Shown here: one piece after another, positions 29,783-31,016 of the stretch
How positions within the stretch are numbered: the stretch's first letter is position 1
How the letters are laid out: every line of letters begins with the position of its first letter
NCBI GenBank assembly: GCA_003215315.1
Contig: QCKO01000008.1
Span: 1 to 43,184, forward strand
Direction: 5' to 3'
Length of the DNA stretch: 43,184 nt
From: Prochlorococcus sp. AG-409-P19
Lineage (GTDB): Bacteria; Cyanobacteriota; Cyanobacteriia; PCC-6307; Cyanobiaceae
Translations under genes and position numbers: made by a program
Notes under the pieces: model-generated
Seen by the model: only the letters and a program-made list of their open reading frames with translations
Told to the model about the DNA's origin: nothing
Databases searched by the model: none

Positions 29783-29871
29783 GTATTAACTGGAAAGGAT
29801 GAAATTCATTAAGCTTGGAGGCAAATCAAAAATTATAAATTCAAGAAAAGCCCCCATTTTTTAAATGATTT

Positions 29872-30123
<252 letters not shown>

Positions 30124-30143
30124 TCAGCTAAAGATGAGTAACG

Positions 30144-30247
30144 CTTTTAATGCGTATTAAAGGGGTGGACCGGGAGTTTATACCTGCGAGGGGTGAATCT
30201 CATAATTCTTGAGACAAGACTGAAAGAATTTCAGCTAATTTCGCAGG
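30144..30247 (-). promoter_or_regulatory. Candidate structured RNA in the atpB-atpE gap
   Basis: In mRNA sense, P1 CCTGCGA pairs with TCGCAGG (30247-30241 with 30189-30183). Inside it are P2, CTGAAA-TTC-TTTCAG (30234-30220), and P3, TCTCA-N7-TGAGA (30214-30198), giving a three-way junction. TCTTG-TCT-CAAGA (30219-30207) is a perfect alternative that would disrupt P3. A further hairpin, CCTTTAAT-ACGC-ATTAAAAG (30163-30144, one G-U pair), lies 24 bases before the atpE start. No T-run follows. It may set atpE translation or processing; it does not match any riboswitch I know. Confidence 0.5.
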
Positions 30248-30290
30248 CAAATTGCTTCAGAAAATCAATTTCGTTAGCAAAAAATTGTGC

Positions 30291-31016
30291 TTAATGATGC
30301 TCTTCTACTGCTTCACCTATGTAGTAAGCAGCAAGAGTGGCAAAAATTAAAGCTTGAATCGCACTTGTAAACAAGCCTAAGAACATAACTGGAACTGGAA
30401 GAACAAGTGGGACAAGAAAAACAAGTACCGCTACAACTAGTTCATCAGCAAGAATGTTCCCGAATAAACGGAAAGAAAGCGAAAGAGGTTTAGTAAAATC
30501 TTCTACAATCTTGAACGGAAGCATTATCGGCGTAGGGTGAACGTAATACTCGAAGTACCGCAAACCTTTATTGCTTAAGCCAGCGTAGAAATATGAAAGA
30601 GATACTAAAAGCGCTAAAGCGACAGTTGTATTTATGTCAGCAGTGGGCGCACCTAATTCACCACTTGGTAGTTTTATTAACCTCCAAGGGACTAGAGCTC
30701 CACCCCAATTGCTTACAAAGATAAACAAAAAGAGTGTTCCGATAAATGGCATCCAATCTCGATAAACCTTTTCACCAATTTGAGTCCTAGCCAAATCACG
30801 AATGTAATCCCAAAGGAATTCCAAGAGATTCTGGACTCCCTTAGGGTCTCGTTCCATTTTCTTGGTACCAGTAACAACAAGTGCTAACAAAGCACCAATA
30901 AGGAGCCAAGAGGTCATAAAGACCTGACCGTGAATTCTTAAGTTGCCTATTTGCCAATAAAGGTGTTGACCCACCTCTAATTCGGCAAAAGGAAGAACAA
31001 ATGGCAATGAATCCAT
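30291..31016 (-). CDS. atpB: ATP synthase Fo subunit a
   Basis: 241 residues with about five or six membrane spans. [18 protein letters not shown] carries the essential stator Arg, and the C-terminal [20 protein letters not shown] is the family end. It forms the proton half-channels against the c-ring. It follows atp1 by 69 bases. Confidence 0.97.

Follow-up and report, generated by a model that had tools for sequence, protein, structure and literature searches.

The closest described counterpart of the RNA considered here is ATPC (RF01067), which Rfam catalogues between the atpB and atpE genes, with a model of 92 positions and a gathering threshold of 45 bits. The family is said to have been described by Weinberg and others in 2007 (NAR). 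Our literature search found no mention of RF01067 itself, and the name ATPC does not occur in the passages of PMC2864571 that were available to us.

Transcripts on the two sides of this boundary were measured in strain MED4 in a 2010 study (PMC2897979). In the parts of that paper available to us, the microarray signal is log2 10.5 for atpB and log2 13.0 for atpE, and the half-lives are 4.6 min and 13.5 min, respectively, or 8.0 and 15.6 min by qRT-PCR. A second decay measure gives 3.4 min for atpB and 24.8 min for atpE by microarray, and an equal value of 4.7 min for both by qRT-PCR. The same parts report that MED4 half-lives rise along operons in general, and that an alternative start site or promoter was mapped upstream of atpE, the authors' data not being shown (PMC2897979).

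Two other systems bear comparison. In chloroplasts, the c-subunit gene is atpH. According to the parts of a review available to us, PPR10 bound at the 5′ end of the atpH mRNA blocks ribonucleases and activates translation ahead of the c-subunit gene; the determinant there is a PPR protein. In the atp (unc) operon of E. coli, where mRNA stability and translation are under segmental control, the message for the a subunit is the shortest-lived and the genes after it have longer half-lives, again as given in part of a review; no homologous RNA structure is claimed, and the likeness is one of outcome only.

The locus studied here lies in a window of 43,184 nucleotides (the whole stretch of DNA analysed) from Prochlorococcus sp. 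AG-409-P19, whose genome assembly holds 1,164,213 bases in 35 contigs and is 67% complete. Both genes are on the minus strand, and the gap between them is 170 nt long. The genes, the gap and the helices of its RNA are as follows.

30291 to 31016, minus strand: atpB (subunit a), the upstream gene, with its 3′ end at 30291; an open reading frame whose product shares 98% identity with its counterpart in Prochlorococcus sp. AG-402-K14.
30121 to 30290, minus strand: the atpB-atpE intergenic gap that bears the RNA element, taken from the list of open reading frames; 107 distinct orthologous gaps, the window's included, were extracted.
29872 to 30120, minus strand: atpE (subunit c), the downstream gene, with its start at 30120; an open reading frame; 34 of the 41 genomes of the genus have an AtpE match.
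30252 to 30280, minus strand: the 5′ hairpin P0, TTGCT...AGCAA in the window, a degenerate counterpart of the TTGCCAG...CTGGCAAA of relatives; seen in the minimum-energy fold.
30183 to 30247, minus strand: the three-way junction P1-P2-P3, 65 nt, very probably orthologous to the ATPC core, from folds, pair probabilities, covariation and a match to the covariance model R1.
30241 to 30247, minus strand: the P1 5′ strand, CCTGCGA, which pairs with TCGCAGG (30189-30183); pair probability 0.90-1.00.
30220 to 30234, minus strand: the P2 hairpin, CTGAAA-TTC-TTTCAG (30234-30229 with 30225-30220); pair probability 0.53-0.98.
30198 to 30214, minus strand: the P3 hairpin, TCTCA-AGAATTA-TGAGA (30214-30210 with 30202-30198); pair probability 0.84-0.96.

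An earlier note on this DNA, made from its letters, had placed the junction at these coordinates. It is indeed present on the minus strand and dominates the predicted ensemble: P1, P2 and P3 all occur in both the minimum-energy and the centroid folds of the window gap, so that the folding check which the note had set is passed, and P0 occurs in the minimum-energy fold and is absent from the centroid. Against shuffled sequences, the fold of the gap has a z-score of -2.46, and that of the 104 nt which the note had singled out has one of -2.70; in both tests, 3 of 200 shuffles equalled or bettered the native sequence. The z-score alone is modest support, and it is the comparison with relatives that decides. 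With that comparison, the presence of a structured RNA in the atpB-atpE gap is confirmed.

The 107 distinct gaps comprise 30 from the window's genus and 77 from outside it; one further locus (L078) was skipped, atpE not being found on it. Three of the 77 were dropped because P2 and AtpE indicate that they probably belong to the genus (L038, L042 and L063), as were two with a long insert in P3 (L079 and L080), one that lacks its 3′ tail (L002) and two rows with duplicate cores, which left 69. These were aligned with plain MAFFT, and the P1-P2-P3 structure was placed by hand on one of them (L012). One record among the relatives (L095), titled as a Bifidobacterium breve metagenome-assembled genome, holds a picocyanobacterial atpB-atpE region with an AtpB 87% identical to the window's, and its label looks wrong.

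In the alignment of 69 gaps, P1-P2-P3 is paired in 90.9% of 1365 cells, and 14 of 20 pairs have changed on both sides; this is the covariation among relatives that the earlier note had proposed to look for. Doubly changed cells number 99, against 27.5 in shuffles, and none of 500 shuffles reached any of five covariation measures. When the structure is slid along the alignment as a control, the shifted versions pair in at most 48.8% of cells. Given the size of the effect and the slide control, covariation by chance is unlikely, though relatedness among the sequences inflates the counts. P0, scored over the 107 aligned gaps, is paired in 78.0% of cells, with 37 doubly changed cells against 11.7 in shuffles.

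The three helices are not equally robust. P1 is the weakest, with 85.3% of its cells paired, and RNAalifold run on the 69-row alignment recovers P2 and P3 and leaves P1 out of the consensus. Its 5-bp core has a mean pair probability of 0.45 within the genus, where 12 of 30 gaps exceed 0.5, and of 0.46 among the gaps from outside it, where 39 of 77 do. The full 7-bp P1 of the window forms in 28 of the 106 other gaps and in 0 of the 29 others of the genus, which keep the 5-bp core as CCTGC/GCAGG or CTTGC/GCAGG. P2 is fully paired in 28 of those 29; P3 is fully paired in all 29, and in 69 of the 106 other gaps overall. Erosion of P2 is found in L038 and L129. In the first of these, a close relative (L038:1458-1542), P2 seems eroded and the match to R1 spans only 48 nt. 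In two loci (L079:2271-2370 and L080:2273-2372), an extra insert of about 30 nt sits in P3, and R1 nonetheless gives the junction more than 60 bits.

R1 is a covariance model built from the same 69 gaps of other genera and contains, as far as could be told, no member of the window's genus; among its training gaps are 25 loci that RF01067 matches at E <= 1.5e-4. The earlier note had suggested a model of this kind, from the atpB-atpE gaps of relatives, as a check. At E <= 10, R1 has a single match in the window, the junction itself (30183-30251, minus strand, 22.9 bits, E 0.0014), in a register that leaves two of the seven P2 pairs and one of the six P3 pairs non-standard. In the window's whole genome, R1 has two matches, of which the junction is the stronger (E 0.037); the second scores 16.2 bits with E 1.65. 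All 37 held-out loci (29 of the genus, together with L038, L042, L063, L002, L079, L080, L142 and L143) were matched at E <= 0.0092. A search of 291 genomes of the class at E <= 0.01 gave 35 genomes with a match, all 35 in the window's family; its filters were stricter, it missed the window's own genome at this E-value, and a within-family fraction is not derivable from it. Judged from these sequences, the element looks confined to this picocyanobacterial family.

How does the window RNA relate to ATPC as catalogued? Nothing in the window attains the threshold of any Rfam family, and ATPC has no match at E <= 10 in 29860-30400 or in the window's genome; the eight weak sub-threshold matches of other Rfam families near the locus include none to ATPC. 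Among 119 relatives, RF01067 matches 32 at E <= 1, of which 15 are over the cut-off, none of them within the window's genus. The two matches in the genus (G004 and G008, E about 0.93) lie on contigs other than the one with atpE and were set aside as noise. At E <= 1.5e-4, the model finds 26 loci (L002-L027), one each in 26 of the 32 other family genera sampled (g2-g33), and all 26 lie inside the atpB-atpE gap. Of the six sampled genera that have no ATPC match, four (G041, G059, G061 and G062) yield neither an AtpE nor an R1 match and are hence uninformative; the remaining two have AtpE, with an R1 match in the gap (L142, 60.8 bits; L143, 39.5 bits).

The best fit of the Rfam model is to one group of genomes, g18. 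We take this group to be of the high-light type, G225 being presumably MED4 and two others MIT 9301 and MIT 9312. G225 has an RF01067 match of 95.2 bits in its atpB-atpE gap, and ten further g18 genomes all score 94.0-99.7 bits, whereas none of the seven other loci in the same search passes the threshold. Because g18 scores high and the other loci fall below threshold, we conclude that the Rfam model fits the high-light type strains best.

The window RNA shares with ATPC its position between atpB and atpE, its strand, the order of a leading hairpin followed by P1-P2-P3, and the register of P1 and P3, and it is homologous to sequences that score as ATPC. It differs in that P2 is rebuilt, the leading hairpin is degenerate, the score of the window copy is below the 45-bit gathering threshold, and an invariant block 3′ of P1 lies partly beyond the end of the Rfam model. 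P2 has gone from the Rfam-type GGUCCGG/CCGGGCC to CUGAAA/UUUCAG in the window's genus, and GGUUCAA/UUGAACU, found in L067, L069 and L104, look like intermediates. In ATPC the leading hairpin is followed by UCUGGCAAAA; here the window has TTGCT...AAGCAATTT, at most a putative counterpart, in which the letters of the motif have drifted. We are highly confident that the window RNA is a diverged orthologue of ATPC, a structured element of the picocyanobacterial ATP synthase operon. The earlier note knew of no riboswitch class that it would fit, but novelty is not supported, ATPC having been catalogued by Rfam from this very gap. The extension of the family to the window's genus, the rebuilding of P2 and the invariant block are, as far as our searches show, new relative to Rfam and the literature. 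The block and two smaller features of the gap are as follows.

30171 to 30193, minus strand: the invariant 23-nt block CCCCTCGCAGGTATAAACTCCCG, which takes in a joining segment, the P1 3′ strand and the stretch that follows; the same in all 30 distinct gaps of the genus.
30141 to 30155, minus strand: a short hairpin of 4 bp before atpE, ACGC-ATTAAAA-GCGT (30155-30152 with 30144-30141), identified by eye in alignments.
30207 to 30219, minus strand: an alternative helix, TCTTG-TCT-CAAGA (30219-30215 with 30211-30207), pair probability 0.017-0.026, judged not functional.

Within the genus, CCCCTCGCAGGTATAAACTCCCG is the longest stretch that all 30 gaps share unchanged. The Rfam model stops at the P1 3′ strand, and the 3′ part of the block lies beyond it. 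Conservation of the block was judged by per-genus counts. Outside the genus, TATAAACTCC is found in 35 of 77 gaps, and in 1 of the 13 gaps of groups g18 and g68. A small open reading frame over the block (MRxxPRRYKLPV, open in many gaps) was considered and rejected: third codon positions do not carry most of the variability (0.107, 0.037 and 0.088 for positions 1, 2 and 3, in 67 gaps selected for holding TATAAACT), and many Synechococcus-like gaps lack a start in that frame. A search of the 67% complete genome for a second copy or a complementary partner of the block returned only the locus itself and one site with three mismatches, no more than a reversed-pattern control. The further hairpin before atpE that the earlier note had mentioned is there, and relatives have GCGC/GCGC or AGCG/CGCT in its place; in the alignment of 107 gaps it shows no covariation beyond shuffles. 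Just upstream of the atpE start, CATCTTTAGC (window 30127-30136, minus strand) is invariant in all 30 gaps of the genus.

Beyond its observed position, junction, covariation and orthology, what the element might do can be approached through the MED4 measurements. The ATPC gap is the very boundary between atpB and atpE at which abundance and half-life step up in that strain. Because atpE exceeds atpB in level and, by most measures, in half-life, we favour a cis-acting stability or processing element, and the suggestion of the earlier note that this spacer is a control point is plausible in the light of the published MED4 data. On whether the element has a role in stoichiometry and stability, keeping atpE above atpB, our judgement is evenly balanced. 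Taken as a whole, the explanation towards which we lean slightly is that of a diverged ATPC orthologue acting as a cis boundary for atpE over atpB. The RNA would be transcribed within the operon mRNA and act in cis, allowing atpE, whose product (subunit c) is needed in many copies per complex, to exceed atpB, whose product (subunit a) is needed in one. Once the operon RNA has been cleaved, or where a transcript begins close by, the folded 5′ element would stay ahead of atpE and make the atpE-distal message decay more slowly. A nuclease, a ribosome or another factor may make contact at the invariant block that surrounds the P1 3′ strand, and an internal start site would perhaps act together with differential stability or processing. 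This explanation proposes no ligand switch.

The main rival is an internal promoter, in which the conserved TATAAACT just 3′ of P1 would be the -10 element of a separate atpE transcript and the gap would be mainly a promoter region. The start mapped upstream of atpE in MED4 speaks for it, as does the occurrence of TATAAACT in all 30 gaps of the genus and in 37 of the 77 from outside it; however, this sequence is found in 0 of the 11 gaps of the high-light type group g18, the presumed MED4 genome included, and a sigma-70 scan, which requires a -35 box, reports no minus-strand site in 29850-30420. A promoter would also leave the covarying helices unexplained. We regard it as unlikely to be the main function of the gap, though a promoter and the RNA element could coexist. 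The structure might alternatively work in translation, as a standby or control element that holds the initiation region of atpE open or brings in ribosomes and leaves mRNA decay unaffected. This would suit the invariance of CATCTTTAGC and the fact that no Shine-Dalgarno sequence is evident by eye before atpE, but the junction ends 62 nt ahead of the start codon and the short hairpin in between lacks covariation above shuffles, and we consider a translational role doubtful, somewhat more so than a promoter.

A metabolite riboswitch, or another two-state switch acting on atpE, might be suspected from a compact conserved junction with a conserved block ahead of a heavily used gene, and short alternative stems are common in the gap (7 perfect 5-bp stems against 1.46 in shuffles, registers being counted apart). 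The earlier note had proposed TCTTG-TCT-CAAGA as a competing helix. Its letters are present and it does exclude P3, but as a switch it is rejected: it makes up about 2% of the predicted ensemble, and none of the 106 other gaps, the 29 others of the genus among them, can pair it in full. Among the gaps examined, it is private to the window sequence. It is on energy and conservation that this helix fails, and not on chance, because short stems exceed the shuffles. A terminator-like site was not found in 29850-30420, the P2 sequence and joining letters drift between genera, and neither a conserved mutually exclusive structure nor an expression platform was seen in the gap, so that a riboswitch is improbable. 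More improbable by far is a target site for a small RNA, Yfr2, pairing GGAGU with the ACUCC of the block. RF01701 (Cyano-1), which we take to be Yfr2, has matches in 4 of 5 genomes searched, the exception being the window's own incomplete genome. When six copies were tested, 7-24% of shuffled targets bound as well, and the duplex energy of the pairing with the block is not clearly above chance. Other regulatory RNAs have been reported for these genes, in the parts of the papers available to us: the antisense RNA as_atpF, from the atpF-atpH region of the NATL2A ATP synthase genes (PMC7368042), and the small RNA Yfr10 in MED4, which has atpA and atpC among its specific targets, the rest of the operon not being targeted (PMC6778093).

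A bolder reading is that ATPC is larger than catalogued, and that the fast-drifting junction together with CCCCTCGCAGGTATAAACTCCCG might be read by a putative dedicated trans factor in low-light Prochlorococcus, setting the dosage of the c subunit. We offer this as a long shot. High-light type strains keep the junction without the block, and the two halves could therefore be tested apart.

Finally, we note that the ATPC model of Rfam misses a whole genus of marine cyanobacteria, for which the present analysis supplies a broader model and a structure backed by covariation. It also locates the element at the point in the operon where published MED4 data show a rise in transcript level and half-life from atpB to atpE.
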